From a virus, in IMG/VR virus record IMGVR_UViG_3300025133_000343, positions 1 through 35,405 of that record: 35,405 nucleotides of DNA; one strand, given 5' to 3'. Made by a program: the position numbers and the translations under genes. The stretch's first letter is position 1, and each line of letters begins with the position of its first letter. Shown piece by piece: positions 204 through 29,755 of the stretch. Under the pieces are notes generated by a model. The model was given only the letters and a program-made list of their open reading frames with translations, was not told the origin of the DNA and searched no databases.

Positions 204-2342
204 GTGTTTAAAGATTACGCTGCAAAGGCTATCACTGCAAAAGTCATGACCGAGACCACCATCTCGGATGGCAAGCAGGCGCACAAGATCATCAACTTCG
301 ACGTTGATGGCCAGGGTTTTCTTAATTTCAATTTCAGGATTATGCCGCTTATACCTGACGAATGGAACGAAGACCTACAACCAACAGCATTCTCAGGAGT
401 AATTGGTTTTGCACAAGGGATGTTTGATGGTGGAGTTCGTCCTGAGTTGCTGTTTCTTACTACTAGTGGTGTGTTTCGCTATGCTCCTTGGCTGCGCAGC
501 ACTGGTGCTTCGGGTAACAACGGCATTGAAGAACAATTCACTCATGTGATCCGTACAACATGGACATCTGCAAGCGTTAAACCACAAGAGTACCAAAGAT
601 TTCCAGCACAGAGCCTCCAATTAGGCGACAGAATATACTTCAACTTTGGAGATGGTGGAACTACTTGGGTATGGAACGGGTGGAAATTGCGTCCGTTCGG
701 TTTCACAACAGCACCGTCTTCCCCTGCCGCATTTGGTCCGGGTGGAGATGCCATCCACGTTGACTCTACTGGCTTTTCTGTGCAAGGAAGAATCGGTACG
801 CTAACTTCAAATCAGCTTTTAAATGAAGCTACTCCGGTTGGTTCTCACGGAGTAAAAGAAGGCGAGTGGAAGTACTCTGTTATATTTGAAAACGAAGATG
901 GTGCGTACTCTCAAAGCTCTCCACTCAGCAACAGCGTTACTCTGGCCGCAGCAACAACATCAAAGACTGCTGACTCTGAGGTCTACCGACGCGCTTTCTG
1001 GATAAAGGATATCCCGGTAGGTCCACTAGGAACTGTCGCTAGAATCCTTATTAGAACGCCCGATCTTCGGAATGCTACCATTGCTAATGGCGACCACAGA
1101 CCACGTTTCCTTCACCGCATACCCAATAACTTCTCTGATGAATGGATTGATAACACTCCGGATGGAGAACTTGGCTCACCTTGGGACGATAGGGACGGTG
1201 CCCCTATTGGAACATACTTAATGCAATCCTTCGCAGGTTCCCTCTTCTTAATGCGAACAAACAGTCATCCGTATAGACTCTGGTGGTCGGAACAGACATC
1301 CTTATTCGGTTCAACACCAGAAAGTTTCATGAGAAACCATTACCTTGATATAGACCCATCAACAGGTGGTATCACAGGAAGTCATGCCGTATTATCTAGC
1401 GGAGGAGATACTGCATCTCCAACACTTCTAGTGTTTAAGGAGGCAGCAACACACTTCATAGCAGGGTCTTACCCTGACTTTAAGACGGGGGCGCTGCATA
1501 AACAGGCTGGACTATCCGGTCCATCTCTCGTTCAGTCTGCTCCAGACGGATCAGTTATTTGGTTTGGAAATGGCTCTTTTTGGGGCTTCCTTCCTGAGAA
1601 GGGACAGGTAGTAGACCTCGGAAAGCCAATTAGAAAGCGCCTTTCTCGCGTTAATATGGCTGTGGCAAAGAGAGGAGTCTCTTGGGTAGACCCAAACGCA
1701 GGAGAACTTGTATTTGCACTACCAATGGACGACTCTACAGTCCCCAATATGCAATTCGTCTGGGATCATAGGTTTACCGGCTGGAGAGTTAAGGAAGATT
1801 TAACGGTAGTGGCAGCTTTGCCCCTTGCGAACTCGGATATCGTACTAATAAGCGGAAACTATACGGCTCCAGGTGGAAAGGCACTTGGTCAGAGTGTTTA
1901 TGCTTACGGCAACTCGTATATAGGTTACCCTGTAACAAGCCCCACAGCCGTATTCCAAAGCGGCTGGACCTCTATGGGAGAGATAGGACCTACAATGCAC
2001 ACACTATCAAACGTAAATGACCTTGTGGTCATTCTTAAAGAGTCCTTTTCTGGGACAGCGACCGTTTCTAGTTACCAAGACTGGGATACTGATAACAGTA
2101 TTGAATCCGGGACTCTAACTACGGCGCATCCAGAGAACGACAACATTCCATATTATGATGCAGCTCAATACGATACCGATGTGTACCGCAGTCTCCGGAC
2201 ATATTCTGACCGCGTGGCTCTTAGCATAGCATCTGCCTCCGTTTTCCAAGTAAAGATCGAGTCTAGCAATCCGATATCCCTGCTGACCTTAGATGTCTAC
2301 GGGCCGATGGTTGCATTCCCCGGCGGGAGGACTCCTCAGTAA
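204..2342 (+). CDS. Tail hub/nozzle-like (beta-propeller type) structural protein candidate
   Basis: This 712-aa protein starts with GTG at 204, directly after the preceding stop. It has many short beta-strand and turn segments rich in G, W, F and D, for example GDRIYFNFGDGGTTWVW near 137-153. A segment with ENEDGAYSQSSPLSN resembles the fibronectin-like insertion of tail tubular/nozzle proteins. Further on, SHPYRLWWSEQ and GNGSFWGFLP resemble propeller blades. Short-tailed phage hub proteins such as T7 gp12 and P22 gp10 share this architecture and sit before the ejection-protein genes, as here. The assignment is from composition and synteny; a fibre-anchoring protein is an alternative. The stop TAA overlaps the next ATG by one base. 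Confidence 0.55.
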   Translation: MFKDYAAKAITAKVMTETTISDGKQAHKIINFDVDGQGFLNFNFRIMPLIPDEWNEDLQPTAFSGVIGFAQGMFDGGVRPELLFLTTSGVFRYAPWLRSTGASGNNGIEEQFTHVIRTTWTSASVKPQEYQRFPAQSLQLGDRIYFNFGDGGTTWVWNGWKLRPFGFTTAPSSPAAFGPGGDAIHVDSTGFSVQGRIGTLTSNQLLNEATPVGSHGVKEGEWKYSVIFENEDGAYSQSSPLSNSVTLAAATTSKTADSEVYRRAFWIKDIPVGPLGTVARILIRTPDLRNATIANGDHRPRFLHRIPNNFSDEWIDNTPDGELGSPWDDRDGAPIGTYLMQSFAGSLFLMRTNSHPYRLWWSEQTSLFGSTPESFMRNHYLDIDPSTGGITGSHAVLSSGGDTASPTLLVFKEAATHFIAGSYPDFKTGALHKQAGLSGPSLVQSAPDGSVIWFGNGSFWGFLPEKGQVVDLGKPIRKRLSRVNMAVAKRGVSWVDPNAGELVFALPMDDSTVPNMQFVWDHRFTGWRVKEDLTVVAALPLANSDIVLISGNYTAPGGKALGQSVYAYGNSYIGYPVTSPTAVFQSGWTSMGEIGPTMHTLSNVNDLVVILKESFSGTATVSSYQDWDTDNSIESGTLTTAHPENDNIPYYDAAQYDTDVYRSLRTYSDRVALSIASASVFQVKIESSNPISLLTLDVYGPMVAFPGGRTPQ

Positions 2343-4599: not shown

Positions 4600-5166
4600 A
4601 TGAGTTGGTCTGGAGCAATGTCGGGTGCCATAACAGGGGCACAAATAGGAGCACAAGGCGGCTTTTGGGGAATAGCCGCCGGTGCTGCTCTAGGTGGCGC
4701 TGCTGGCGGTCTATCTACGCTAAAATCTGATGAAGAGAAATCAATTGAGGCTTTCTATAAGCAACTATCTCAAGGTGTTTCCCGACAGGAAGCGGCGCAA
4801 AGGATATCTATTGCAGAAAGCAAGGCCGAGGCCGCAGCAGCAGAGGAACGCGCCACACAAGTTAAGCGTGGAGGTGTGTCTAGTGCCGCTGGCGGGACCA
4901 GCGGTGTCGCTATGACTCAAGCACTACAGGCTGGAGCACTGGCACGACGCGCCCGTTCAGAAGCCTTGGGTAAAGAGCAGAAGAGTCTAGGGGAACAGGA
5001 CATCCAAATGAAGATTGCTGGTATGCAAGGGATGGCTGCTATCGAGCAGCAAAAGAAGCTAGATCAAGAGAAGGCAATGAACCTATTGATCACTTCTGAT
5101 ATCGGCGCAGACACTCTCAAGAAGACTGGTGCAGGACTGAAAAATATCTTCGGGGAGAAAAAATAA
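4600..5166 (+). CDS. Small internal virion/ejection protein candidate with glycine zipper
   Basis: A 188-aa protein with AGGAG upstream. Residues about 5-42 are an almost uninterrupted Gly/Ala stretch with G-x-x-x-G spacing, including GAQIGAQGGFWGIAAGAAL. This looks like a membrane-inserting glycine zipper. The rest is Ala/Glu/Gln/Lys-rich helix, probably coiled coil, with a short Gly/Ser hinge near 93-102. Small ejection proteins such as T7 gp14 and P22 gp7 have this size and membrane-active layout and precede two larger ejected proteins, as seen here. The role, membrane insertion during DNA delivery, is inferred. The stop overlaps the next ATG (TAATG). Confidence 0.55.
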   Translation: MSWSGAMSGAITGAQIGAQGGFWGIAAGAALGGAAGGLSTLKSDEEKSIEAFYKQLSQGVSRQEAAQRISIAESKAEAAAAEERATQVKRGGVSSAAGGTSGVAMTQALQAGALARRARSEALGKEQKSLGEQDIQMKIAGMQGMAAIEQQKKLDQEKAMNLLITSDIGADTLKKTGAGLKNIFGEKK

Positions 5167-7448
5167 TGCCTCAAGATCAACTAGGATTCGGCTCAGGCTT
5201 ATTTGGCAATAAGAAAACTGCTACAAGCCAACCAGGAACTTACCCGTTGGGTGTTGGTGGTGGCATTGCCCAGATGATAGCGTCTCGTCGTGAAGGCGTA
5301 TATGCCTTTATGTCTCCCGCACAGCAAGCTGATTTACGTGCTAAACTAGAGGCTCAACTAGCAGACCTTTCAAAGCAAGAGTACGAATGGCGAAAAGGTC
5401 TCGTTAAAGACAAGACTGTACACGCGGATCAGCTACTTAAACTCTACGAACTCAAGACCGGAATAGGTGCGACCGGAGCAAAGATCCAGTTAGGTAAGCA
5501 AGACATACTTGCTGGCGTTTACGCTGAAATGGGCGTTACAATGTTTGAACATGGAATTACCGAAGCTGATCCTACCCAGATCCCCGGTCTAACTGGCCCA
5601 CAAGGGCTTACCGGCGAAGTGAGTGTGGCTGCTGCTGGTCTAGAATTGACAGAATCAGCTTTTACCGAATTTAATGGTCAGGGATCAATCGCACAGAAAG
5701 CAGCGTACCTTAGTAAGGAAGTTGGGAAACCAATCGAAGCAATCATCAACAAGACAGAGAATTACGGTGCCCGTATGGGGGTTGGCGCTGGCCACGGGAA
5801 GCTGATGACTACAAGAATGGCTCAGTCGGTTGCGGCTGACCAGGCGTATGCCCATCTCGGTACCTTCATGAAGGGAGCAGGGACTTCCGGCGCTGATCAA
5901 AAAGAGATCATGGCTCTTTTTGGCGATATGCACATTGCTCGCGGTGACGCTACCTTTGGTGTAACTAACAGCACCGACGCACTTGCTGACGCTTCGGCTT
6001 TAAAGAAAGAAGTTGGACGGAAAGTAACAACATCTAAGTATATTACAGACTCCCTACAGAAAGGAGTTGGTTTTGACCGAGAGACTGAATTAGCTGACTA
6101 TCTCTTTGGTTACTACAAAAATATGGAAGAGGGGAAAGATCCAACCGATGCGTATCAGGACTTACCGCCGCCACAGTGGTTAGGCGACAAGGAGTCTATG
6201 CTTAGGGCGCAACTTCAGCGAGTAGATCGCAGTGATCCTTATGCAGATCAAGTTATCCGTGTTGCTGGGCTTCAAGGCTTTGACGAGTATAAGGCTGCTC
6301 TAGGAATAAAGGGAAATGGCTACGAGGCGAACCGCAAGGCTGCTATGATTATGGCTAAAGATCCGAAAGCGGCCAGTGCTGCTTTTAAGTTCTTTACTGA
6401 AGGAAAGCGGAGTGGAGTACCTGACGCTAAACTAGACGTAATGTATCGCCAATACCTCGCTCAGGGCGGTGCCCCCGAAGGTGGGTTGTTTGGCAAGAAA
6501 TTCGATTCAGAGAGTGTTCGTCGTGCTTCGTATGCAGGAATGACCGCAGTTGATATTGCAGGAATGGGCCAGACAATCGGCAACTACATTCAAACTGGTG
6601 AGTTTAAATATATCCAAGCCCCAACAGAGGCTAGATATAAAGAGTTTAGGGATCAATGGATAGCAGAAAATGCCCCAGAGGGTGCGTTTGTGGGTGAAGA
6701 CGGGAGCTTTACGTTTGTAAGCGAACTACTCAAGGGCCAGTTCTCTAACGCTGCTGCAAGTTGGATGGAAAAGCAAAAAGTTCTCGACCGGAACCCTGAT
6801 TCTAAAACCTTTGGTGCTCTTGTGCCAGAAGAAATGGGCGCTGCAACCTATGATCTCATGGCAAAAGATGCTGCTTATCTTAAAGAAAAGGCTACCGCAT
6901 TGACTATGGCTAGAGACAATATCGACACTGCTGATAAAACACTTGATTTTGGTGCCCCAGATACCTCAACCGCAAGAAGGGAGGGTGATATTGAACTGGG
7001 TGGTGGCGCTGAACAGGTTGGCACTGAAAAAGAAAAGGCTATGGCCCTCTTTGAGGAGATGGCTAAGATTTATAAGAGTGAAGATGAGCGTCAGTTCCGT
7101 CGTGACATCTACCAAAAAGCATTACGTGAAGATGCTTCCTACGACGAAGCTTTGTCTAAGGCTAAAAAGGCTGTGTTCTCCGAGAAGGTACAGCCCTTCA
7201 CAGAAGAGCAACGCCTGACTATGGAGGCTTTAGAGTCCGGTGACAAGGACAGGTCTGTAATCCAAGAAGTTGGAATGGAGCCTGTAACTGCTGAAAGCAG
7301 TACTCCGGTAAATAAGCCTAAACCTAAGAAAAAGACAGTAGTAGACTCACTAGAGGCTCAAATTATGGGAACTGCGTCTTCAGAAGACGATGAAGACTTA
7401 GAGGCGTTAATTATGGGAACCACCAAACCCAAAACAATTGTTTTATAG
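5166..7448 (+). CDS. Large internal virion/ejection protein candidate (760 aa)
   Basis: A mostly helical 760-aa protein with an N-terminal Gly/Ser-rich segment, a Gln/Glu/Lys helix at about 45-100 and a highly charged C-terminal third. No lysozyme or transglycosylase motif is visible. The extreme C-terminus carries an acidic linker between two copies of one octapeptide, LEAQIMGT (about 729-736) and LEALIMGT (about 745-752). By order (after the glycine-zipper protein, before the giant protein) it matches the middle ejection protein of short-tailed phages, such as T7 gp15 or P22 gp20. It has no recognisable sequence identity, so this rests on synteny. Confidence 0.5.
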   Translation: MPQDQLGFGSGLFGNKKTATSQPGTYPLGVGGGIAQMIASRREGVYAFMSPAQQADLRAKLEAQLADLSKQEYEWRKGLVKDKTVHADQLLKLYELKTGIGATGAKIQLGKQDILAGVYAEMGVTMFEHGITEADPTQIPGLTGPQGLTGEVSVAAAGLELTESAFTEFNGQGSIAQKAAYLSKEVGKPIEAIINKTENYGARMGVGAGHGKLMTTRMAQSVAADQAYAHLGTFMKGAGTSGADQKEIMALFGDMHIARGDATFGVTNSTDALADASALKKEVGRKVTTSKYITDSLQKGVGFDRETELADYLFGYYKNMEEGKDPTDAYQDLPPPQWLGDKESMLRAQLQRVDRSDPYADQVIRVAGLQGFDEYKAALGIKGNGYEANRKAAMIMAKDPKAASAAFKFFTEGKRSGVPDAKLDVMYRQYLAQGGAPEGGLFGKKFDSESVRRASYAGMTAVDIAGMGQTIGNYIQTGEFKYIQAPTEARYKEFRDQWIAENAPEGAFVGEDGSFTFVSELLKGQFSNAAASWMEKQKVLDRNPDSKTFGALVPEEMGAATYDLMAKDAAYLKEKATALTMARDNIDTADKTLDFGAPDTSTARREGDIELGGGAEQVGTEKEKAMALFEEMAKIYKSEDERQFRRDIYQKALREDASYDEALSKAKKAVFSEKVQPFTEEQRLTMEALESGDKDRSVIQEVGMEPVTAESSTPVNKPKPKKKTVVDSLEAQIMGTASSEDDEDLEALIMGTTKPKTIVL

Positions 7449-7457
7449 GAGAACGAA

Positions 7458-8147
7458 ATGGCAAGAGAAATTACGTATAACGGGCACATTTTAGTTCTAG
7501 ATGATGCGACCGGTACTGTCACAATGGCAAATGGAAAGACGATGAGTACTGGTGCCAGCGAGAAGATTTTTGCTGCACACCCTGCACCGGGACCCGAAGA
7601 AAGGCAGCAGACCCTCGCAGAAGGTCTCAGTGCTATGATAGAATCATCTAAAAGACCTGTCATTTCGTTTCAAAAACTATACTCAATGGGCAGCAACAGA
7701 GGTGACGCATGGGACGGGCGACACCCCCTATACAACACTGGCGTTGCAGATATGTCCACAGACCCGGACTTTGCTAAGTACCATGATGAGATTAAGAACG
7801 CGGCCAGTATGCCGGTTGGGTTTGCTCTTTTCGACAAAATAGCATCCGACAAAACAATACCATATCAGAAACAGCAAGCAGCACGTAACGTTTACAACTA
7901 CCTGCTGGCCGATGCTCAGCATACAGTTAATGTTAACGCTAAACATAACTTAAATAAAAATATGGTAGAAGTGGTGCGCCCTTGGTCGCCTCTTGACTGG
8001 AACCGTGAAGGCGAAATGAAAGTAAAATCAGTTTACAAACCAGCCAAAGACACACCGCAATATTCTGGTGGTAAAGCAGAAAAACTGACTCGTGACAAAG
8101 AGCGCCTGGAATCAGCGCAGAAGTTATCCGAATCTTTAAACAGATAA
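7458..8147 (+). CDS. Unknown protein between two ejection-type genes
   Basis: A 229-aa soluble protein with AGGAG about 6 bases before ATG. The N-terminus, ITYNGHILVLDDATGTVTMA, looks like a short beta domain. The middle is helical and the last 30 residues are strongly charged (KAEKLTRDKERLESAQKL), suggesting a coiled-coil tail. I recognise no family. It lies 9 bases after the 760-aa gene and 9 bases before the giant gene, so it is probably co-produced with them as an internal virion component or assembly factor. Confidence 0.55.
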   Translation: MAREITYNGHILVLDDATGTVTMANGKTMSTGASEKIFAAHPAPGPEERQQTLAEGLSAMIESSKRPVISFQKLYSMGSNRGDAWDGRHPLYNTGVADMSTDPDFAKYHDEIKNAASMPVGFALFDKIASDKTIPYQKQQAARNVYNYLLADAQHTVNVNAKHNLNKNMVEVVRPWSPLDWNREGEMKVKSVYKPAKDTPQYSGGKAEKLTRDKERLESAQKLSESLNR

Positions 8148-8156
8148 GAGGAACTA

Positions 8157-11100
8157 ATGGCCGAGGAAGAAGGCGATAAACAAGCTGCTATCTCTTCAGA
8201 TGAAGGGATAAACCAAAAGCAGTGGATGCAGGATAGCGACCTAGGGGCACCAATGGCCCCCATCTTACTCTCAGATGCAGAGAAGTCCATGCTGACTGAC
8301 CCTAGGCGTGAGCGTGCCATACGTACCGGTCCATCTAAGAGCTTAAAAAGAACTGAACCGAAGTACCACCCTTCTAGTTGGAGGCAACTCGGTGGAGATC
8401 AGTTCTCACCCCCAGACCAAAGAGCCGAAGCCGAAAGAGCTATGGCGATGGCAAAGCTTTACCCCGAACACAGGGCACACTATACCTCGATTGCTGGTGC
8501 TCACGCTCTTGGTCAAAGAAACCTACTAACTTTTGAAGACATAGAGGCGGCAGAAGCCCCCTCTTTCTGGGAGAATATAGGAACATTACTCGAACCCTTC
8601 ACTACTCCGCAAAGAGCACTGTGGTACGGCGCTTTCAAATTAGGAGAGTTCCTACCAGATCCGGGAACCATGTTTGGCGATACCGTCCAAGACCTCGTAG
8701 GGATAGTTGGGGCACCGATGCTCGGCCTAACTACTGGCGTGTTACAGCTCCCAATAATGACATGGGAAGCTATCTTCGGAGAAGACAAGAGAGAAGATCA
8801 TTACTCAAGCGGGAAGATTCCAGCAGAGGAACTAACTATGTCCTTTACGGATATGGTAGAGAACCTTTATAGGGATGTCTCAACTGGCGAGCTAAGCAAA
8901 CAAGCAGAACTCCACATGCGCCCCTGGCTCTACGGTGACTGGAGTTCAATGCCGTCTCCGACTGGGGACATGATTATTGATTCAATGATCTCTCACGAGG
9001 CAGCAGAGCACCTTTCTCGCAATGGTAGCACTCGGCAACTGCGGAAGTTTGGCGACTGGATGAGTAGCGATACCGGTCGCTTATTATTCGGTGTCTCACT
9101 GGAGTTAATAGCAGACCCTCTGTGGTTTGCTGGCCCAGCAAAGGGTGCCAATATTATTGGTCATGGAGATGACGCATACCGCATAAGCGGTATGTTAACG
9201 AAGTCTTCAGGAAAATTAAAAAAACTACAAGTAGGTCCTACAAGCTACAGTAAAGTAGATTTCCAACACATGTTTATAGACCTCTATGGTGCCGGTAAAA
9301 ATAGTACCCCCGCAAAGATAGCAGATGCCGAAATTCTCTTAGGTCACCAAGCAGAGATAGCCACTGCCCAAGTAAAACTACTAAAGAGCGAATACGCTTT
9401 AGTAGAAAAGGCGCTAAAAACTGAACTTCCAGAGGATTTAAGAAGGGCAGTTCGTGCTATTGCAGATGCAAAGCTAGATACAGCCAAGGCTGAAGCAGCA
9501 AGCTTCCAGATAAAAGGGGCGCAGGGTGCTGCCGAAAAGAGCAAACTCTTCGCAAAGCACGAAAGTGAAAGGATTAGGCTTATCGCAGCCAATCCGGACA
9601 AGGCTAAAGCCTGGTTAAATCGCCAACTCAAAAACCTACCTAAAGAAACTAAAAACTTCCAGAAACTAGCAGATGACATTGGTAAGATGATTTCCGATGC
9701 GAGTACAATTAGGGCTAAGGGGCCAAAAGCAGTAGCAAAGCACGTTAAGCCTCACGGCGCATGGGCTGTCCATATCCCCTTTACAACCAAAGAAATGTAC
9801 TTGCTCGAAAAGTCACCTGTGAGGTCAGCAACCGAACTTATGCGGAAGGTTGGGCCTGTAGCCAACATGCTCGATAACTATAACTACGCTACTCTTTCAG
9901 ATGACTTTGCTAAGGCTCTACAAGTTAATCCTAATATCTCTGCGCTGGAAGCCTTTGGGCATAACCAAGCAAAACTTGCTGCATGGACTATGGGTGGCAC
10001 AGTCCAAGGCTTAGCGAATATCCCTCTGGCAGGTTGGGATATGTTTAGGCGTGCCTTTGGCACTAGATTCATGCAACCGATGATCCAGTCAATGCACCAC
10101 ACAGCAGCCCGTCAGACCGGCTTAGTCCCTGTAATTACTTTCGGTGGACAAACTCTGCAACGGATAAAGAGGGTACATCCTAAGATTTGGTCCGAATACC
10201 AAGATGGTCTAACCAAAATGATGGAAGGGTACACTGGTCTAGAAACCAACCTTCGGAACCGTATCCTTAGGATCTACGAGAAAGCAAATAGAACGCTTAG
10301 TGAGCGTAGAAAGAAGTCTGCCGAGGAAGTTAAGCGCCTTACGGCTTTGCGTAGCAAGGCAAGTGACCCACTAGTAATTGCAGACCTGAACTTCAGGATT
10401 GATAAAGCTAAGATGTGGGGGAACTCAAAGGAGTACTCTCTAAAGAATATTGTTGACGAGGCTGGCTCCGCTCTGGAGGAAGGTGCCGGTGGCCTTGAGA
10501 AGCTATCTGATGATGTCAGACTAGTCGGTGATGAGGCATTGGCCATTGTCAAGGAAATCGCTAATGACCCAACAATCGCGGCTGGTTACGCAGAGGTAAC
10601 CCAATCCCTTGTAGAGTTTGCTAGGCTTTCAAAGGGCAGCAACCTCGAAAAGGCAAATATTCTTGCAAATCTAAAACTCGTAGATGAAGCCTTATCCTCG
10701 ATAAATCTTACGGCAGAGAAGGCTACTAAAAAGATGCGTAGAGCGTATATTGAACGCTTAACAGAGCTACGCACCGCAAGAAGCATGATCGAATCTATTA
10801 ACCCAGAGGCTCTATCTGCGGCCATTATTGCGGCCACAAAGATTACAAACGAGACCTTTCCTGAGGATTTGTTCAAGCAATTTGTTTCTATATTCGGGAC
10901 AGAAGAAGCCGCTCGTTCAGTGCTTCGTGGCACAGCGATAGCAATGGGTACGGCTGATGGGCACACAGCCATGCGTATGTTTGCTGAAAAGATCACAGGA
11001 GATATACCTGCGTCCAAGTTTGGAGATCCTAAGGAGCTAAGAGAAGCAATCGGGTTTGGTATTAGAGATTACCTTTCTCAACTCAAGTCAGACTCTATAC

Positions 11101-14100
11101 GGATGCAAAATGCCTGGAAGCAGGGGGCTACTGATGTGAGAATCGGAGAACGTCAGTTCTTCCCCGGAATGAAGAGCGACGATTTTGATGCACTTGTGGA
11201 TTCGATTATCGAGAAAGAGACTCTTTCTTGGAAGGCGCTTATTCCTGCTAACGAGCGTGGCGCTTTCCAGACTTGGGCTGCAAAGGGAGACCGACCCGGA
11301 GAGAGCATGTTGCTCCGTTTAGCAGACGGCGCTCCAGAAGTTGCCGCAGGCAGTGAACACTGGAAAGCAGCTTACTCATTCTACCATAGATCTAGAGCAT
11401 TAGAGGAAGTAAAAGTTACCGCTAGAAAGTGGGCGGCTAGTGGCAAAAAAGGCACGAGGCAGAAGGTTATTCTTTCTCTTGAAAGCCAACGATCCAAAGA
11501 AGAGATGTATCGTATAGCAGAGGCAACTGAAGCAAGGGGTGGCGTTGTATCCGATAGGTATATGCGCCCCTCAAGGTGGCGCAGAAAGCGTAAGCCTACG
11601 CCAGAGCCAGAGCATGTTCCGGTTGAGCTTATACCAGACGAGGACTTGTATATCCCGACTCCTGATGAGTTAGCAACTGAGGCTGCTTGGGATGCCGAAA
11701 TACTAAAGATACGGGAAATAGTCCAAGGGAAGCGTATATTCCTTGATACAACGATAGATCTATCTGACCCGAAAGCCTTTCATAAACCTGTTAAAAACTC
11801 AGACGGGACAGTTAAGAAAAATAGAGAAGGCGAAGTCATTACGATGCTCGATAGGAAACTTCGGGCAAAGTTTGATCAAAGGATGTCAGTGATTGGTATT
11901 CCTGAAGCAGAATTTACAAAGCTGCTCAGGGACATGGCTAGTAAAACCGATCTTGCTAAAGCAGATAGAGCGAAAAAACAGTTTTTAGCGTATATAAACG
12001 ATATGTACCGAGCCGACGCTCCTATAGTACATCCCCCTGCTCAAAATACTAAAAAGGTAGATTTAGATATAGATCTAGGTACAGACTTGGGAGTAGCCCA
12101 AACTCTAGACAGGGTACTTAAAGAGGTAGATATTCAGGTGGGCCGCGCTCTTTTCAGAGACGCAGACTCCGTAATAATAGAGACCCGTGAGGTCCCTCGC
12201 GTGGCTCCGGGCAAGGCTAAAAAGAGAGTAAGAAAAAAGACTAGTGCAGCCCCAACAGGTGAAGAGTACCACCTTGTAAGTAACGAGCTACTTCGTAAAG
12301 AAGCCGAACTTGACCGACTAAACCGGACGGCAGCAGTCACTACTAATCCTGAGGAATTAGCCGCCTTGAATAGCGAGCACGTAGAGCTTATGCGTGAGAC
12401 TCGCGACCTACAGAGAAGGCAAAAAGAACTTGCTCCCGAACCGGTTCTAGATGCGGATGGTAACCTTGTCCCAGAAAAGGAATTAAAGGATGTTGACGAT
12501 AGAGTACCAGAGGTAGAGTACACCTATGCAGAGCCGCCTGACTTCACGCTTCACGGCGGCAAGTACGAACTTACAGGCAGAATTACCACCAGCAAAAGGT
12601 TTTGGCCGAAACTTAAAAGAGGGGAGACATACTACTACTACCCTAAACAACTCGGTCCTCCGAATTACACATACCTAGATGGTCAGTCTCACATTGTCGC
12701 TGGTAAAGCCGTTGATCTTGGCCTTAATGATGGTAGAGATTACTTTATCTTTAAGAAGAATCAGCGCCACACAACCAAAGAAGGAGCACTAAAGGAAGGC
12801 GAGGAAATAACTGGCCATCATGGTCAAGTAGATGAAAGCAGACAGGCAGATGTGCTGCGCGACAGTACACTCATGGAAAAAGTGAAAAAAGGAGAGCTGG
12901 AAAAAGACTTACAAAGAGGCGAGTCCGAGGCTATATTCGAGCGTATAGTGCATCGCGGCGAGGACCTAGAGAATCAGGTTGTTGTTCCTGTTGTGAATAA
13001 AGACGAAGTACTAAAGCCTGACTTCGGTGAAGACATTCACTACGTCCAAGTGCGTGCATCAAAAGCAAAGGATGCTGCAAAAGAAAAGGCCAAGAGGGTT
13101 GCAGATGCTAAAAAACTCTTTGAGGAAGGCCCTGACTTCGCAGAGTACCAGAAAGTCACAGCGGAATTAAAAGAAAAGAGAAAGTTCCTTAATACACACC
13201 TCACTCCGGCAGTAGACAAGATACATCGCCGCATCTCTAAGCTAGAGATTGAAATCAATAATGCAACAGGCTCTCCCAAAGAACTAAAAACGCTAAACAA
13301 ACGCCTTTCCGAAGCACGCGATCAGCTAAAACTACAGGAAGAACAGGTAACTAAGTATCGTACAGATAATATTGAGCCACTAATAGCAAGGCAAAAAAAA
13401 CTTGCTCCCCCACCTGTGGAAGGAAAGTTTGTAGATGTCGGCGGTGCACGCCGTGTCGTTGGGCACGACGTAGAGGTTCAATCTTTACTGGAGAAGGAGT
13501 TCTTTGCCTATAAGGATTCTGATAACTACTGGTACATTGTAGAGGTGGAGTCAGGTGCGAGAGTATCAAAGGGTCAAAGTGTTGAGAGCGCCCTTGAAAC
13601 AGTAGAGGCAAGAGTACTTGAAAAGGGTAAGCAGTATCACCTAGATATTCTTGCTAAGCAGCCATCCCTTTGGGGATTTGGAGAGAAGCAGGTACACAAA
13701 AGCTTCATCAAAAAAGAGGAATGGTTAGTTAAAGATGTCGCATCTGGAATTACTCGCGGGAAGGGTGCGACCAGAGAAGCCGCCATTGAAGCCGCCAAAA
13801 ACAAAGACTTTAGCTGGCAGATACCCGCAGCTCATGAGAAACCCGAATACGTACCAGTAGTTAAGCTGGCCGGTGCCGCTGATCATGTAGAAACACCGTG
13901 GCAAATCAAAATACACCGCCTAGGCAAGCCTAAAGGTGAGATCTTTGGTGGTACAGTATTACTAGCCAGAGCACCTAAGAGAGCCGGTAAGCCATTGATG
14001 CCTGCCACTAAAAGAAAGATAGAGGCTGCGAGAGATAACGGTGGCAAGTTTATAGTTGGAGATAGCGTTAAGTTAGACAAGGCGCTTATATCGTACTTAG

Positions 14101-17100
14101 ATGAGATTGGTGCGAACTACACCGTTTATGGCCCATCTTATACTCTGGGTGGCCCAAGGGTACTCGACAGGGTCCGAGAGGGTCGCTTACAGATCCCACT
14201 TCGCCCTCTCAGACTAGAAACAAGGGCAGCAATAGAAGAAACAGGGCGCAGGCATCGTAACTATGTAGTTCGCACAGATAAATTGTCTGGAGAACTTCCC
14301 CCCCCTAGGGTCTCTAGAGCAACTCCAGCGTCACCTTTTAATCCTATCTCTCGGACGGAGAGCCTTGACCTGAGAGTTAAGGGTAATTTAAAACACCAAA
14401 CTGACCGTGTTGTAAATGGGATTGATGATATCGGTGTCGCTATCCAAAAAGAGTTTATTACTTGGAAAGAAACGAATATCAAGAATATTAACCCTCGTGT
14501 TTACAGTGAGACTCATACCCCAGAGGGGTTACTCTTCTCCGTTAGTAAGGTCCTGGAGCGCCTTTCCGGTGCTAACCGCACGAACCCTTTCCCAGATGCG
14601 GGTAGTGTAGAGAACCTTGAGTTACTTCTTGAAGCCCTCCACTCCTATGCTTCAGGCTTAGGAAAGACATTCAAACCCAGCACAGCCCTACATAATAAGG
14701 CTATTGCCCTCTACGAGGGGCTAACCCGCGTAGGGAAGCCTATAGGTGGTAAAAAGTATGGACCTCTTGGTCCATTTCATGATCACTTTGTCCAGATCTT
14801 AAAAGGGCTTACGCTTGGCGGGGAAAACGGGTCTGCTACGATTAGGGCCGCACTTCGCAAGATCAAAAAGAAGTACGGAAAGGATATTGAACTGGCCCTA
14901 CCTCCGGTTGGAGACGCTGTACGTATGCCGCTTGGACCCAAGGGGATGGGATCTGTCTCTGAACTCCGAATACAAAGGATACGGGAACTTGGCGACGATG
15001 CTATAATGGATGCCTTAGGCGCTATGGTTGTAAAGGACGGGATCAACGATACGCATGTAAGAGCCATGCTAACGAATATATACAAGCGTTCTAACGCTAA
15101 AAAAACTATCTCAGAAACAACAGAAGCAACCCTAAAGGCAGATCTCACCAGCATTAAAGAGAGTATGCTTGATCTATCTAGGACTACCTTCGCTAAGGTA
15201 GACGGAAAGATGGCTAGAGGAGACATAGCCCGTGAAATCTTTGCTAGTGCTCGCAAAGAAGGGAAGATTATCACTAACAAGAAAGGAGAACTATCAAAGG
15301 AGTTCCTTGAAAAGAGAAAGGAGTTATCAGATCGTCTTCACAAGCACATCGAGCCAAAGGGTGTTGACCGGACTGTTGAGGGGTGGGAGCAGAAGATGTT
15401 CGCTGACTTCACGGCGCTGGCGCAGAAGCATGGCCTTAGCCGTCAGGATCAGTTGTTCGCCGCCTTCTCTGTTCTACGTGAGATGCCTCGCGGATTACCA
15501 CCAGCGATGATGAAGAACCTCACAAAGAAGTATCCTCAGGTTATCGGACGACGTTTTGGTGATGTAGAGGACGATCTAGTCCCAGTCATGGAAGAACTAG
15601 AGAGCCTTATTAAGTTCTACGAACTTGAGTACGCCGATAAGGTCTGGGATCTTGTCCGTAACCCAGAGGAGATGATGGAGCGATGGGGCGTTGTGGACTT
15701 TGTTCCCCATCCTTTCCATGCCGGAACAGATGAGATTGATATACAGCTAAGTATGGCAGGGAAGACTAACCTAGGGAGCGGCAGAGGTTTCCAGGAGATG
15801 TTCTTCCGTGATATTGACGCTGCGAAAGGCCGTAAGATCGCTGGCTCCATCAACGAGATCAATGCTTTTAACTCAGCAAAAGAGGGTGCTACTAACCTAA
15901 TTAGCCTTGACCCATCCTTGCTCTGGGGAAGGTATGCACAAGTAAACCATGCCATAACTAACGATACATTCGTACAAACACTGATATCAACACGAGTTAT
16001 CCGTGGTCTTAGGGTTGGCGACAAGAGCCTTGCTACCGACTTTGGGATTGAACTTAACCGCCTAGACGGAGTTCCTAAGACAGTTGAAGAGTTAGCAGTA
16101 GAACTAGATATGGTTCCCTTGTTTCAACGGGATGTCGCAACAGAAGAACTATCTAGGTTCCTTGAGTCTACACTAGATGAGCTTTTAGGCGCAAACGCAT
16201 CAGTAGAAGGCGCTGCCGGTAGAAAAGAAGTAGGCGATCTCCTAGAGAGTGTCGCCGCTGCGGTAGATAAAGCCCCAGAGAAGGGTTTCGCTACTTGGAT
16301 TAAGTCATCAAAGAATATAAATGCTCTTCGTAAGATCGAGCAAACAGCCCTCAGGCTTCGGGCAGCACAGGCAGCAAACGGACAGGAGTTGTTTAACGCA
16401 CGCAGAAGATACCAAGAATTATTATCTCCGGATCTCGCCAAGAAGATTGAAGACTGGGATAGTACGGAAGGCGCTAAGCTAATGAATGCGCTACCAGAAG
16501 AGCAGTTTAATGCGGCAAGAAAGAAGGCACTAAGAGAGATCGAAACCTCTGTGTCTCGTAAGGCTTGGGAGGATGTTTCCGAAGAGATGAACGCTTTACG
16601 TCACAGCCTTACACCCAACGCCCCTAAGACGACAGGTATGCACCTATCTGCATACTTTGATCCTGATGTTGGACTCTGGGAGATGTACATACCGAGAGCG
16701 GTGTACCAGAGTATGCACGAAGTCATAAACATGGACCCCAAAGCGCATGGATTAGTTGGAACAGCTTTAGAGAGATTCAATAACTGGTGGAAGACCCGTG
16801 TTACCGTCATCGCAATAGCATTCTCAACACGTAATGCGCTTGCCAATAACGTTACTATGGCGTTTGACTTAGGCCCAGGGGGAGTTCTTAGCCCTAGAAC
16901 ACAACTGAAAGGTCTCCAGTTAGCAAACGCCGCCCGTTGGCACGATGAGTTTGGTAGCATCGCTAAAGCATGGGAAGTTATATCAACTCCACTAGCTAAG
17001 GGTGCGACTGCGGCAGACAAAGCAAAGCGAGCGAACCGGCTTCTTGGATTCACTACTGGTAGATTAAAGAAACTACTTGACGAGGGGGTACAGGTAACTG

Positions 17101-18632
17101 ACGACCTTTGGATGCCGGTAGATGAGCTACTAGACAGATTAAATCGCACTGGAGTGATCAGCCCGGCCTATACTCAAGTGGTTGATATCAATGCTATGGA
17201 ACAGGCTATGGCTAAAATGTACCTACATGGGGGTGCATTGGCTGACGGGACAACAGCAGCCAGAGTCAAACAGTATATGTCAAACATAGAGGATGCCCTG
17301 CTCGTTACCGTCCCCACAATGATGACGGGTGGCGTACCTGTGGCTATGACGAAAAACGTAGGTGCACAGTTTGCCCGTGGTATTGAAAACCAAGCCCGTA
17401 TCTTCAATTTCCTAGCCAATATAAAGAAAACGAATAACTGGGACGATGCAGTCTCCCATGTAAATAAGTTCCTGTTTAACTATGGTGACCTTACTCAGGT
17501 TCAGAAGCGGTGGATGCGCTTGCTTCTTCCTTGGTTCACATGGAACCAGAAGAACTTTATGCTTCAGTTAGACTTAATGCAGAAGTCACCCGCCTTGTTC
17601 GCATCATTCCATCGTATGATGGTTGACGGCTTGCCACAGGCGATGGAAGCAAGTCAAGCGGAGTCTATAGGAGAACGTTTTGTTGATTACGATCCGCTAT
17701 CAAAGGAACGTCTGTCTCGTCGTGAGACACACTACATGCACACCATTCAGGTCCCACTCCCTTCCCTTGAAAACTTTGCTTTAGGAAACATCCCCGTACC
17801 AGCATTCAAGAGGGGCAAAAAGGGAACCGTACCTTGGCAAACCTTTGATATGCAATGGGGTAAACTAGGTAAGGACTACTTCCCTCGCATGAAGAACGCT
17901 CAAGTACAAGGGTTCGGGCTTCCGCAAGAGGCTTTCGTAAATAACCTATCGTTGCTAATGACAGCAGCAGACGTAAGGAACTGGCCGTGGATGCCTCTAC
18001 CAGGAGATCTAGGTAAACAACAACGAGCACGCTCGTTTAGTTCTCGTAGTCGGTGGATTCGTATGATGGGTGAGACCCATGCTCTACTTCGCCTTGCAGC
18101 AGAGATCGGCTCTAGCCAACATTCCTATTTCAATAAGCCAATCAATGAATTGACAGACGGCAGGCTGGTAGCTGAGACGCTTGATGGGATAAGAAAGGTT
18201 CCTTTCGTTGGCGATACAGTGGCAGACATTATGGCAGAGAGAACAGGGCTAAAAGGGTACACGGTCTACGATAAATGGAGTGGTGGCTGGAAAGAGTTCC
18301 TTCGTGTAGACGGTTCAGCAAATCACATACTAGGAACACTGCCTTGGGCACGTAGTCTTAGAGATGCAGCAGCCATGACAGACCAGTTCCTATTAAGTCG
18401 CTCTATTCCGTTCGAGCAATTGGCCGCAGAGGGTATCGTTGGTGAGTTTGGTGAAGTGGCCCCACTATACAGCGTAATAGATGCGCTCTCCGGTGTTAGA
18501 ATCAAACAAGTAGATCCTAAAATGATGACCTCTTATGGTAACCTTAGAACAGAAAAGCAGTTACAGAAGTATCTAGAAAGCAGGGGCCTTTTGAAGTCCT
18601 TTGAAAACTCTTACGTCCCTTACAAATACTAG
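8157..18632 (+). CDS. Giant polyvalent virion/ejection protein (3491 aa)
   Basis: A single uninterrupted frame of 10.5 kb with AGAGGAAC before the ATG. The N-terminal 380 residues hold hydrophobic helices (about 150-210, 300-325). Coiled-coil-like stretches lie near 400-560, 680-900, 1375-1435 and 1645-1750. Around 1930-2000 is a Rossmann-like segment with LLARAPKRAGKPL, GGKFIVGDSVKLD and ISYLDEIGANYTVYG, resembling SLOG-type nucleotide-binding folds. The C-terminal region carries WWKTRVTVIAIAFSTRNALA (near 2870) and FNYGDLTQ...LLPWFTWNQKN (near 3106-3133). These two signatures recur together in large polyvalent phage proteins. Delivery into the host with the DNA is inferred from operon order and size. 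I see no convincing RNA polymerase, protease or transglycosylase site. Confidence 0.6.
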   Translation: MAEEEGDKQAAISSDEGINQKQWMQDSDLGAPMAPILLSDAEKSMLTDPRRERAIRTGPSKSLKRTEPKYHPSSWRQLGGDQFSPPDQRAEAERAMAMAKLYPEHRAHYTSIAGAHALGQRNLLTFEDIEAAEAPSFWENIGTLLEPFTTPQRALWYGAFKLGEFLPDPGTMFGDTVQDLVGIVGAPMLGLTTGVLQLPIMTWEAIFGEDKREDHYSSGKIPAEELTMSFTDMVENLYRDVSTGELSKQAELHMRPWLYGDWSSMPSPTGDMIIDSMISHEAAEHLSRNGSTRQLRKFGDWMSSDTGRLLFGVSLELIADPLWFAGPAKGANIIGHGDDAYRISGMLTKSSGKLKKLQVGPTSYSKVDFQHMFIDLYGAGKNSTPAKIADAEILLGHQAEIATAQVKLLKSEYALVEKALKTELPEDLRRAVRAIADAKLDTAKAEAASFQIKGAQGAAEKSKLFAKHESERIRLIAANPDKAKAWLNRQLKNLPKETKNFQKLADDIGKMISDASTIRAKGPKAVAKHVKPHGAWAVHIPFTTKEMYLLEKSPVRSATELMRKVGPVANMLDNYNYATLSDDFAKALQVNPNISALEAFGHNQAKLAAWTMGGTVQGLANIPLAGWDMFRRAFGTRFMQPMIQSMHHTAARQTGLVPVITFGGQTLQRIKRVHPKIWSEYQDGLTKMMEGYTGLETNLRNRILRIYEKANRTLSERRKKSAEEVKRLTALRSKASDPLVIADLNFRIDKAKMWGNSKEYSLKNIVDEAGSALEEGAGGLEKLSDDVRLVGDEALAIVKEIANDPTIAAGYAEVTQSLVEFARLSKGSNLEKANILANLKLVDEALSSINLTAEKATKKMRRAYIERLTELRTARSMIESINPEALSAAIIAATKITNETFPEDLFKQFVSIFGTEEAARSVLRGTAIAMGTADGHTAMRMFAEKITGDIPASKFGDPKELREAIGFGIRDYLSQLKSDSIRMQNAWKQGATDVRIGERQFFPGMKSDDFDALVDSIIEKETLSWKALIPANERGAFQTWAAKGDRPGESMLLRLADGAPEVAAGSEHWKAAYSFYHRSRALEEVKVTARKWAASGKKGTRQKVILSLESQRSKEEMYRIAEATEARGGVVSDRYMRPSRWRRKRKPTPEPEHVPVELIPDEDLYIPTPDELATEAAWDAEILKIREIVQGKRIFLDTTIDLSDPKAFHKPVKNSDGTVKKNREGEVITMLDRKLRAKFDQRMSVIGIPEAEFTKLLRDMASKTDLAKADRAKKQFLAYINDMYRADAPIVHPPAQNTKKVDLDIDLGTDLGVAQTLDRVLKEVDIQVGRALFRDADSVIIETREVPRVAPGKAKKRVRKKTSAAPTGEEYHLVSNELLRKEAELDRLNRTAAVTTNPEELAALNSEHVELMRETRDLQRRQKELAPEPVLDADGNLVPEKELKDVDDRVPEVEYTYAEPPDFTLHGGKYELTGRITTSKRFWPKLKRGETYYYYPKQLGPPNYTYLDGQSHIVAGKAVDLGLNDGRDYFIFKKNQRHTTKEGALKEGEEITGHHGQVDESRQADVLRDSTLMEKVKKGELEKDLQRGESEAIFERIVHRGEDLENQVVVPVVNKDEVLKPDFGEDIHYVQVRASKAKDAAKEKAKRVADAKKLFEEGPDFAEYQKVTAELKEKRKFLNTHLTPAVDKIHRRISKLEIEINNATGSPKELKTLNKRLSEARDQLKLQEEQVTKYRTDNIEPLIARQKKLAPPPVEGKFVDVGGARRVVGHDVEVQSLLEKEFFAYKDSDNYWYIVEVESGARVSKGQSVESALETVEARVLEKGKQYHLDILAKQPSLWGFGEKQVHKSFIKKEEWLVKDVASGITRGKGATREAAIEAAKNKDFSWQIPAAHEKPEYVPVVKLAGAADHVETPWQIKIHRLGKPKGEIFGGTVLLARAPKRAGKPLMPATKRKIEAARDNGGKFIVGDSVKLDKALISYLDEIGANYTVYGPSYTLGGPRVLDRVREGRLQIPLRPLRLETRAAIEETGRRHRNYVVRTDKLSGELPPPRVSRATPASPFNPISRTESLDLRVKGNLKHQTDRVVNGIDDIGVAIQKEFITWKETNIKNINPRVYSETHTPEGLLFSVSKVLERLSGANRTNPFPDAGSVENLELLLEALHSYASGLGKTFKPSTALHNKAIALYEGLTRVGKPIGGKKYGPLGPFHDHFVQILKGLTLGGENGSATIRAALRKIKKKYGKDIELALPPVGDAVRMPLGPKGMGSVSELRIQRIRELGDDAIMDALGAMVVKDGINDTHVRAMLTNIYKRSNAKKTISETTEATLKADLTSIKESMLDLSRTTFAKVDGKMARGDIAREIFASARKEGKIITNKKGELSKEFLEKRKELSDRLHKHIEPKGVDRTVEGWEQKMFADFTALAQKHGLSRQDQLFAAFSVLREMPRGLPPAMMKNLTKKYPQVIGRRFGDVEDDLVPVMEELESLIKFYELEYADKVWDLVRNPEEMMERWGVVDFVPHPFHAGTDEIDIQLSMAGKTNLGSGRGFQEMFFRDIDAAKGRKIAGSINEINAFNSAKEGATNLISLDPSLLWGRYAQVNHAITNDTFVQTLISTRVIRGLRVGDKSLATDFGIELNRLDGVPKTVEELAVELDMVPLFQRDVATEELSRFLESTLDELLGANASVEGAAGRKEVGDLLESVAAAVDKAPEKGFATWIKSSKNINALRKIEQTALRLRAAQAANGQELFNARRRYQELLSPDLAKKIEDWDSTEGAKLMNALPEEQFNAARKKALREIETSVSRKAWEDVSEEMNALRHSLTPNAPKTTGMHLSAYFDPDVGLWEMYIPRAVYQSMHEVINMDPKAHGLVGTALERFNNWWKTRVTVIAIAFSTRNALANNVTMAFDLGPGGVLSPRTQLKGLQLANAARWHDEFGSIAKAWEVISTPLAKGATAADKAKRANRLLGFTTGRLKKLLDEGVQVTDDLWMPVDELLDRLNRTGVISPAYTQVVDINAMEQAMAKMYLHGGALADGTTAARVKQYMSNIEDALLVTVPTMMTGGVPVAMTKNVGAQFARGIENQARIFNFLANIKKTNNWDDAVSHVNKFLFNYGDLTQVQKRWMRLLLPWFTWNQKNFMLQLDLMQKSPALFASFHRMMVDGLPQAMEASQAESIGERFVDYDPLSKERLSRRETHYMHTIQVPLPSLENFALGNIPVPAFKRGKKGTVPWQTFDMQWGKLGKDYFPRMKNAQVQGFGLPQEAFVNNLSLLMTAADVRNWPWMPLPGDLGKQQRARSFSSRSRWIRMMGETHALLRLAAEIGSSQHSYFNKPINELTDGRLVAETLDGIRKVPFVGDTVADIMAERTGLKGYTVYDKWSGGWKEFLRVDGSANHILGTLPWARSLRDAAAMTDQFLLSRSIPFEQLAAEGIVGEFGEVAPLYSVIDALSGVRIKQVDPKMMTSYGNLRTEKQLQKYLESRGLLKSFENSYVPYKY

Positions 18633-21505: not shown

Positions 21506-21683
21506 CCACGAAGATGAAACCTTTTAGATCTCCACTTGAATCGTGAATCATTCGGGTAATATGGTCGTATTTTATAAGGTTGATGTTGTGCTTGATGATA
21601 TCTTTATCCCAAGGGATAGCCCGATAAGGGGCAATGGTATCATCCTCGCCTTCAAACCCTATAATGTCCTCATTTCCAGTCAT
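21453..21683 (-). CDS. Small acidic protein after SSB
   Basis: A 76-aa protein. The frame stays open further upstream inside the SSB gene, but that part reads as a low-complexity shadow. I place the start at ATG 21683, which overlaps the SSB end by 14 bases and fits translational coupling; no separate binding site is seen. The sequence runs from acidic (NEDIIGFEGEDDT) to a beta-like C-terminus (LKGFIFVDEEGIVRWYAAD). Family and function are unknown. Confidence 0.5.
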   Translation of the reverse strand: MTGNEDIIGFEGEDDTIAPYRAIPWDKDIIKHNINLIKYDHITRMIHDSSGDLKGFIFVDEEGIVRWYAADENYLE

Positions 21684-22137
21684 TAGTACTACTGTTCCCG
21701 TTATCGGTACTAGTAACACCGTTACTAATGGGCGCAGGGTTTCCAGTATCCACTGGCCCATGTCCCGAACCGGCTGGAGGACGAGTCCCACTACCAGATC
21801 CCATGCTTTCCTTTTGGAAGCTTTGTCCAATACCTTCTGCGCTAACCTTTTCCACGTTGAACGCAGTGAGCGATGAGTAGTATGCGGCTTGTCCATTCTT
21901 CTCTACCTTACGTGTAGTGTACTTACCCTGGCACATTACCAGTTGTCCATTCCGGCAGTTACGAGCGTTGTCTTTTGCTCGGTCTCCCCAAATTTGAACC
22001 GTGTGATATGCGTCGTAACGGGTTCCCCCACTGGTTTCCCATGTCTTAACCCTAAGGTTAAGCACACTCTTTTGACCGACCTGACGCTCTTCCGGGTCTG
22101 AAACTAGCTCGCCAATTATTAAACAGTTATTGATCAT
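21670..22137 (-). CDS. ssb: Single-stranded DNA-binding protein (OB fold)
   Basis: A 155-aa SSB. Residues 1-105 read as an OB fold in the SSB style: NCLIIGELVSDPEERQ, SVLNLRVKTWETSGG, TVQIWGDRAKDNAR and GQLVMCQGKYTTRKVEKNG. A Gly/Ser/Pro-rich linker of about 40 residues follows. The C-terminus is STNDWK, lacking the usual acidic DDIPF tip that recruits partner proteins. The gene starts 2 bases after the nuclease stop, with GGAGAG overlapping that stop. It protects single strands for replication and annealing. Confidence 0.85.
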   Translation of the reverse strand: MINNCLIIGELVSDPEERQVGQKSVLNLRVKTWETSGGTRYDAYHTVQIWGDRAKDNARNCRNGQLVMCQGKYTTRKVEKNGQAAYYSSLTAFNVEKVSAEGIGQSFQKESMGSGSGTRPPAGSGHGPVDTGNPAPISNGVTSTDNGNSSTNDWK

Positions 22138-22139
22138 CT

Positions 22140-23144
22140 TTACTCTCCTACGAATAGTTTTATCTTGGTGCTTTTTTGGTAAAAACCTGATGAGGAAGGT
22201 TCCTCATAGGCTGAAGGCCAACACGTTTTCCAATGTGAGCACCAATCACAAGGGAATCTGAGTTGTCCTTTTGTGGCTTTCGCCGTTGATGGTTTAAATG
22301 GTCTTGCTATCTCCTCTGGTGATTGTGATTCTATGACTTCTCTCAAACGTGTAACGATTCGGTCTTTAACGATGGGGTCGCCTTTAACCCAATGGCCTAC
22401 AATTGGACTCGCTTTAGCCCAAGAGCCATCTTCTCTAACGATACCATCCTTGACTGTAACATTCTTACCTAGTGCTAAGACGTAAGTCCAGTTGTATTCC
22501 TTACCAGTCATCTGCGTCTTAGCCATTTGATAGGCTTGTGTCTGGTAGTTGTACAGGTCTTCAGTACTCAATCCGTTCTGACGGAAACGCTTGAAGCCGT
22601 AGTCACTCATTGACTTGATTTCAAGTATAGCGTCTACCATAATGAACTCACCCATATCTCCACGATACAAAGGAAGATTCATCGTTCCATCCGGATGACC
22701 AGCAACCTTAGCAGTTCTGTCGTCACTAAGCGGGATCTCTAAGCATACTCTTTCTTGAGCTAGACCTGTGTTACTTATGTTGATAGTGTTGATGTGGTCT
22801 GTAGCATCATGCAATGCAGCAACCATAAGCATCTCAATGATATCTCCTACAGCGAATACGATAGGAGAACTCTCATCAGGAACAAAGCCATTAGGTTTGT
22901 AATGATGGTAGTCATAGGCTAATGCTCGTTGGCATTTGCCAGCAGAACTTAAACGCAATGAACCAGTGGGTCCGTTCCTTGGTTCTTCTAGTTGCCTGAC
23001 TAGTACCTTGCCTAGTTCCGCTGTATCATAGTTAGTTGTTATTGGTTTGCTCTGTCTTAGTCTCGCTAGAACTATAGCAGCCAAGTCTGGCATCCATATC
23101 CCATGCTCAACCTCAACCCATAGACCGTCTTCAATGACTTCCAT
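22140..23144 (-). CDS. Cas4/RecB-like PD-(D/E)XK exonuclease with probable Fe-S cluster
   Basis: A 334-aa nuclease. The active-site set is GHPDG (D152), ILEIKSMS (E175, K177) and YNYQTQAYQ (Q203, Y205). Four cysteines sit where Cas4/AddB-type enzymes hold an iron-sulfur cluster: C71 in AGKCQRALAY, then C299, C302 and C308 in PCDWCSHWKTCW. With the Rad52-like annealing protein it would form a resection-annealing pair like the phage Red systems. The start overlaps the OB-fold gene's end by 14 bases, with GGGGG upstream. Chemistry is well supported; polarity of digestion is not readable. Confidence 0.85.
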   Translation of the reverse strand: MEVIEDGLWVEVEHGIWMPDLAAIVLARLRQSKPITTNYDTAELGKVLVRQLEEPRNGPTGSLRLSSAGKCQRALAYDYHHYKPNGFVPDESSPIVFAVGDIIEMLMVAALHDATDHINTINISNTGLAQERVCLEIPLSDDRTAKVAGHPDGTMNLPLYRGDMGEFIMVDAILEIKSMSDYGFKRFRQNGLSTEDLYNYQTQAYQMAKTQMTGKEYNWTYVLALGKNVTVKDGIVREDGSWAKASPIVGHWVKGDPIVKDRIVTRLREVIESQSPEEIARPFKPSTAKATKGQLRFPCDWCSHWKTCWPSAYEEPSSSGFYQKSTKIKLFVGE

Positions 23145-23454: not shown

Positions 23455-23464
23455 AATGTCCTCC

Positions 23465-29558: not shown

Positions 29559-29580
29559 ATAGTCTCCAATGATATATACA

Positions 29581-29609
29581 CGTATAGTATATACGCGGGG
29601 GCGGTGCAA
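29581..29609 (-). promoter_or_regulatory. Candidate endolysin promoter overlapping a 15-bp palindrome
   Basis: On the - strand, TTGCAC (29609-29604), a 17-base spacer and TATACG (29586-29581) precede the amidase ATG by about 22 bases. The -10 is one arm of the perfect inverted repeat CGTATA-GTA-TATACG (29581-29595), which could be an operator. The -35 is weak. Confidence 0.4.
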
Positions 29610-29676
29610 GTCGCATAACGCAAGGCGAACCGCGTGAGGCAAACCAGTGTGCGTCGGACTGATTTGCGGAATTTGC

Positions 29677-29705: not shown

Positions 29706-29755
29706 CCACCAGTCACGACGGTGTGACGCACCACGAATCTCAATTAGGAGAACAC

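Follow-up and report, generated by a model that had tools for sequence, protein, structure and literature searches.

Giant ejection proteins with variable middles are an already known class of phage protein. In T7, gp12, gp13, gp14, gp15 and gp16 follow one another with products of 794, 138, 196, 747 and 1318 aa (sizes from coordinates). According to the available text of PMC10386132, the genes for internal virion proteins are usually found rightward of those for the tail tube. PMC8954989, PMC12633501 and PMC10925440 (available text) describe ejection proteins and polymerases that are ejected, with lengths of about 3,400-3,500 residues. Polyvalent proteins are defined by Iyer et al. 2017 (available text of PMC5512222) as having at least two domains of disparate, mostly enzymatic activities; a zincin-like metallopeptidase for processing is given there as a common, non-universal theme, and the main text of that paper contains no occurrence of the term SLOG. 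According to Iyer et al. 2022 (available text of PMC9503650), a viral SLOG domain usually stands alone and may counteract ADP-ribose signals. Here we describe a giant protein gene at the end of a virion gene block in a 35,405-base stretch of DNA from an uncultured phage known from environmental sequence only; the stretch, an entire IMG/VR virus record, is hereafter referred to as the window.

The giant gene and its surroundings

The genes relevant to the analysis lie on one strand in the following order:

204..2342, + strand: 712-aa protein in tail-nozzle position, named from position and size
2342-4590, + strand: three consecutive genes (264, 242 and 241 aa) between the 712-aa and 188-aa genes
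4600..5166, + strand: 188-aa protein in gp14-like position, weakly matching internal virion protein family phrog_6056 over residues 2-56 (E 0.0017)
5166..7448, + strand: 760-aa protein placed like T7 gp15 (747 aa), assigned by position and size only
7458..8147, + strand: 229-aa protein between the 760-aa and giant genes (ORF call)
8157..18632, + strand: giant protein gene with ATG start, 3491 aa and no internal stop; a 3399-aa orthologue is present in a relative

The original prediction that a single gene occupies about 30% of the window was borne out, the uninterrupted reading frame taking up 10,476 of 35,405 bases (29.6%). No family match was obtained for the 264-, 242- and 241-aa proteins or, in profile searches, for the 760-aa and 229-aa neighbours. 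A tail fibre gene was not recognised in the window, nor were tRNAs found in its 35,405 bases. At the 3′ side of the giant gene the coding strand switches and a replication block with primase, RuvC-like, Cas4-like exonuclease, Rad52-like and DnaB-like genes follows. Two reading frames, 21670-22137 (-) and 23131-23493 (-), by eye resemble single-stranded-DNA-binding (OB-fold) proteins; they flank the Cas4-like exonuclease gene and lie near the Rad52-like gene. A protein with Amidase_2 and PG_binding_1 domains, likely an endolysin, is encoded at 28797-29789 (-), distant from the virion genes.

IMG/VR scans with the whole giant protein, its middle or its C-terminal part returned either nothing or one relative alone, IMGVR_UViG_3300025168_000010, which was the sole match of the scan with the C-terminal part. 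The relative has the same gene order and encodes a 3399-aa orthologue that is 57% identical end to end. Since this orthologue is syntenic, the length of 3491 aa is no assembly accident. Comparison of the pair gave pS of 0.74, which is near saturation, versus pN of 0.26. The orthologue thereby shows that the giant gene encodes a genuine protein, kept under purifying selection. The contig of the relative also carries, upstream within this block, terminase, portal and major head protein genes. Its portal scored 25.5 bits with a P22-like portal model, just missing the cut-off of 26.1, and matched the portal family phrog_156 at E 6.2e-9; its major head protein matched phrog_9953 at E 1.1e-9. Head genes are missing from the window, presumably since the contig is a fragment. 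The 724-aa orthologue of the 712-aa protein in the relative matched the virion structural family phrog_3287 (E 1.5e-4), and the orthologue of the 188-aa protein gave no phrog_6056 match. Nothing similar to the giant gene was detected in named phage records by megablast of the gene or tblastn of two protein parts. A lax tblastn with the C-terminal motif region reached 87 records, and the 40 listed, at E of about 2-9, were mostly Acinetobacter phage RNA polymerases, which we attribute to chance.

The following features were mapped within the giant protein:

9099..9134, + strand: motif LELIADPLWFAG, residues 315-326, with a similar DP(L/W) motif in large proteins of contigs L011 and L054
11757..12596, + strand: fast-evolving linker region, residues 1201-1480, with many indels between both orthologues
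13059..13403, + strand: helical hairpin (coiled coil), residues 1635-1749, AlphaFold block pLDDT 76-98
13500..13802, + strand: two beta-beta-beta-alpha units, residues 1782-1834 and 1846-1882, with a repeated W-x-V...SG...G pattern, moderate confidence
13953..14129, + strand: Rossmann-like module half, residues 1933-1991, beta-alpha-beta-alpha-beta, block pLDDT 74-89
15477..18629, + strand: most conserved part, residues 2441-3491, dN 0.23 and 0.16
17475..17555, + strand: FNYGDLTQ...PWFTWNQKN motif, residues 3107-3133, common with the giant protein of contig L005

The sequence segments on which the original prediction was built were located where expected: FIVGDSVKLD at residue 1965, YLDEIGANYTVYG at 1980, WWKTRVTV at 2877, STRNALA at 2890, FNYGDLTQ at 3107 and PWFTWNQKN at 3125. 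The protein is mostly helical and rich in Ala, Lys and Glu. The hydrophobic helices that had been proposed were reduced to two stretches of the 3491 aa, starting at residues 177 and 3047. Because just these two exceed a 19-residue Kyte-Doolittle mean of 1.3, no strong transmembrane segment is predicted. Several coiled coils had likewise been proposed, and one, the long helical hairpin, was found in an AlphaFold model covering residues 1440-2080 (641 residues, mean pLDDT only 56.9). In a VIA search, the 641-residue model matched only helical structures, through its coiled coil, a result that does not bear on the other units. The second W-x-V unit has a weak DUF7387 match and, with dN of 0.24, is better conserved than its surroundings. 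The DP(L/W) pattern had no match in L005, L033, T7 gp16 or N4 gp50; its likeness to the L011 and L054 proteins is suggestive only, since the pattern was composed after the sequences were seen.

No enzyme domain was recognised in the 3,491 residues by searches of Pfam, NCBIfam, PHROGs and PDB sequences, and an HExxH or H[ED]xxH peptidase motif is absent from both orthologues. The enzymatic content of the middle had been described from the outset as unexplained; no enzyme was credibly recognised there or elsewhere in the giant protein. By the definition of Iyer et al. 2017, the claim that the protein is polyvalent is so far unsupported, because neither a domain of disparate enzymatic activity nor an HExxH motif was found. 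Matches to FabG-like reductases (PDB sequences, E 5e-4, residues 776-973) and to NCBIfam PhaB (E 0.0018; 17.9 bits, where the cut-off is 436) were rejected as chance similarities of a helical Ala-rich stretch, and no Rossmann fold is claimed there.

A phage alpha/beta module and its altered copy in the window

The segment near residues 1930-2000, which had been described as SLOG/Rossmann-like, is homologous to a module present in other phages. A copy in contig L005, reading GDMPGVDSQF, was found by two-sequence alignment of the segment. An IMG/VR scan for a GDMPGVD-type motif revealed 33 contigs, and on inspection the module was present around the motif in all 33. A loop-blind IMG/VR scan, based on EIGA-x-[FY]-T-x-Y, a pattern for the last helix and strand, yielded 26 stretches, 25 of them genuine and one (L052) not. 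Both scans together place the module in 46 IMG/VR contigs (the relative counted, the window not; some are near-duplicates). When prokaryotes were scanned with one genome per species (84,980 species), 26 stretches matched a pattern and one encodes the module. This is L054:3258-10001, where a 2247-aa protein opens with the module in a metagenome-assembled contig labelled Neisseriaceae, which appears to be phage sequence binned with a bacterium. Three tblastn queries against 50,697 named phage records did not find a copy, and no published description of the module was found in open-licence PMC main texts. The module family, unlike giant ejection proteins, appears not to have been known previously.

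The canonical module is about 125 aa long and consists of GKGTPxGDxKDxAMRxxADxxIxEL, a serine-rich link and then the half found in the window. Nine positions are invariant across 36 of 36 aligned members, the window and the relative among them. In L011:2899-4281 and L033:6319-7632 the intact module is encoded by a gene of 460 aa and 437 aa, respectively, between genes that a reading of the ORFs, without profiles, labels terminase-like and portal-like. Further along, both contigs encode a separate large protein, which in L011 lies downstream of the module gene and has about 1800 aa. Similar module ORFs of 408-481 aa were identified in L013, L020, L021, L024, L025, L027, L028 and L039. Among 10 contexts examined, DUF7831 was detected within 480 residues of the module in L044 (E 1.6e-35) and L016 (E 4e-5).

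AlphaFold predicted the canonical module (36 rows) with pLDDT of 93.8 and pTM of 0.88 as four helices alternating with four strands. This alternating alpha/beta order recalls the SLOG superfamily (YspA/cpYpsA, DprA-like), but none of the 36 module members matched a Pfam SLOG family. The module has no Pfam family and no entry in the protein-family libraries checked, and Foldseek with the canonical module matched neither PDB entries nor viral models at E ≤ 0.001. Of the 22 highest-ranking viral structure rows, five had SLOG-type names, at E 0.18-0.84; the best PDB rows were NagD-type HAD phosphatases (E 0.015, VIA Z 7.4). No SLOG chain was named among 50 VIA rows, an absence that excludes nothing. 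Membership in the NagD-type HAD phosphatases was rejected on E above 0.001, a Z of 7.4 below the caution level of 8 and alignment of these enzymes in part only. The term Rossmann-like is therefore kept and the SLOG assignment is not established, because a confident alpha/beta model is accompanied by weak and mixed fold matches.

A profile of 31 canonical copies, from which the window, the relative and L044 were left out, scored 56.2 bits in the window (residues 1933-1991) and 49.4 bits in the relative, compared to a maximum of 5.8 bits among 1,000 shuffled proteins. The module core MLARN...GxxxxxD...EIGAxYTxY is present in the window by this profile. The GDMxxVD loop was found in 23 of the 25 genuine loop-blind copies, the exceptions being the relative (GNTKHLD) and L044; the window has GDSVKLD in place of the GDMPGVD signature. 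The L044 copy (L044:5306-5755) has a third variant loop, GNSWID, and lies in another phage's giant protein. No N-terminal GKGTPxGD half aligned in the window, where residues 1884-1930 are predicted to be unstructured with low pLDDT. Since both the GDMxxVD loop and the N-terminal half are missing, the window copy is at most a derived member of the family. A MAFFT alignment paired GKGATREAAI of the window with the GKGTPxGDxKD of the module; homology was rejected because the stretch lies in the second W-x-V unit and residues 1884-1930 are predicted to be unstructured.

Between the orthologues dN is 0.37 in the module, compared to 0.70 in the flank before it and 0.59 in the flank after it, and LDEIGANYTVY is unchanged in the 57%-identical pair. 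The module dN below that of the flanks and the unchanged stretch suggest a domain that is retained but altered; coming from a single pair with saturated synonymous sites, this is not strong proof. The window copy is probably repurposed rather than decaying.

The L005 contig (IMGVR_UViG_3300007735_000451) encodes a 2365-aa giant protein that shares two collinear patches with the window giant, the module (BLASTP E 7e-10) and an FxYxDL...P(F/W)xxW motif (E 4e-5), both E-values being computed in a set of 14 proteins. The L005 giant follows a gene block whose first product, of 535 aa, matches the internal virion protein family phrog_511 (E 7.6e-13). Among 45 module loci, many with ORFs cut by the fetched stretch, the C-terminal motif was found 3′ of the module only in L017, which is the L005 contig, so the arrangement seen in the window is rare. 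Among protein families, phrog_19395 ('tail fiber protein; host specificity') fits the C-terminal motif best, matching residues 3074-3155 at E 1.4e-5.

A probable ejection protein and its alternatives

An ejection-type protein, as initially proposed, is supported by the position of the gene, by the weak internal-virion-protein match of a neighbour and by the C-terminal motif common with the L005 giant. The giant gene lies in a virion block beside an internal virion protein gene (the weak phrog_6056 match); synteny of the block is retained in the relative, and L005 with its phrog_511 protein offers a parallel. We conclude that the giant protein is a probable ejection protein by position and company and, judged by sequence comparisons, not a homologue of gp16 or of the N4 polymerase. 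Its presence in the virion and its ejection are what we infer from this placement, and it most likely enters the host cell together with viral DNA. On balance we find it probable that the giant is the largest podovirus-type ejection protein of this virus and that its altered module copy has most likely lost the ligand chemistry and has a binding or spacer role.

The giant would be the last member of a gene cluster resembling T7 genes 12-14-15-16 in order and, the giant excepted, in sizes. It would lie packed close to the portal within the head, exit the virion either before or together with the DNA and help form a channel across the host envelope. The structural work would fall to the first 350 residues, which are conserved, and to the C-terminal third. 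The middle (about 1180-2110) is a fast-evolving part made of linkers, the helical hairpin, the two beta-beta-beta-alpha units and the altered module copy. The location of the intact module in virion-cluster or giant proteins of other phages makes its delivery with the DNA probable, and it probably binds a small ligand or a host protein via the GDMPGVD loop. In the window and the relative this loop is replaced, with the fold core and single loop residues retained. The original ligand chemistry of the window copy is most likely gone, and the copy may serve as a binding or spacer domain.

The alternatives differ in what they make of the module and of the protein as a whole. That the module is a decaying, functionless relic inside an otherwise structural ejection protein is suggested by the replacement of the signature loop in both orthologues and by the lack of a confidently folded N-terminal half in the window. 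This is unlikely given the lower dN of the module than of its flanks, the identical LDEIGANYTVY and the nine positions invariant in 36 of 36 members. The giant could instead be a true polyvalent effector, with structural ends and one or more active enzymes, diverged beyond recognition, that act on the host as infection begins; the Rossmann-like module would be one such enzyme and handle a nucleotide, e.g. an ADP-ribose derivative. It resembles polyvalent proteins in its very large size, virion-cluster gene and modular middle; intact module copies occur in other virion-cluster or giant proteins, and viral SLOG domains have been proposed to counter ADP-ribose signals (Iyer et al. 2022, available text of PMC9503650). 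It differs from them in having neither recognised enzymatic domains in the Pfam, NCBIfam, PHROGs and PDB sequence searches nor an HExxH motif, and the SLOG identity of the module is unproven. While it is possible that the giant carries a putative effector into the cell, the sole insert that could be one, the module copy, has lost the signature loop of its family, and we regard the polyvalent effector as quite unlikely. We hold it improbable, too, that the module represents an undescribed virion-delivered family of nucleotide-binding counter-defence proteins, of which the window copy is a re-specialised member with a shifted ligand and a selected fold. If this were true, intact copies, in giant proteins and in genes between terminase and portal, would enter along with the DNA, to bind or cleave an immune nucleotide of the host ahead of any phage gene expression, and the window phage would have a re-specialised version of the module fused into its ejection machine.

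Two further explanations concern the virion role of the giant. The phrog_19395 label would fit an outer virion protein, e.g. a tail fibre or receptor-binding protein, but the Ala-, Lys- and Glu-rich, mostly helical composition with a helical hairpin and the location of the gene after the presumed internal virion genes make this very improbable. The label itself may be inherited, because the 80 residues matched are the motif common to the L005 giant. With 3491 aa versus 3500 aa, and adjoined by smaller virion proteins as is gp50 of N4 (Schitoviridae), the giant might also be a virion-encapsidated RNA polymerase of the N4 type. The T7-type polymerase motifs A, B and C were the motif patterns used in the polymerase test. 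No polymerase motif set is conserved in both orthologues, N4 gp50 was unmatched by profile or BLASTP, and there was no polymerase match in Pfam, NCBIfam or PDB sequences, so that an N4-type polymerase is scarcely credible.

With the giant read as an ejection protein, one element of such a variable middle is identified, namely an alpha/beta module found repeatedly in uncultured phages, within virion-associated or giant proteins. At 125 aa, with a confident model and a strongly conserved GDMPGVD loop, the intact module is small enough for a direct nucleotide-binding test, and the window copy, with its loop replaced and core conserved, is a natural variant for comparison in such a test.

The L005 giant, like the window giant, carries the module followed by the FxYxDL...P(F/W)xxW motif and stands behind virion genes; unlike in the window giant, the loop is the canonical GDMPGVD and the N-terminal half is complete, and the remainder of the two proteins does not align. 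T7 gp16 gave no homology by profile or BLASTP and no Pfam transglycosylase match was obtained; judged by sequence, the giant is not filed as a member of the T7 gp16 family. It is 2.6 times the size of gp16 (1318 aa) and has no recognised transglycosylase domain, whereas the locus as a whole resembles that of the T7 ejectosome in its order after the tail genes and in the partners of the giant, of 188 and 760 aa here versus 196 and 747 aa in T7.
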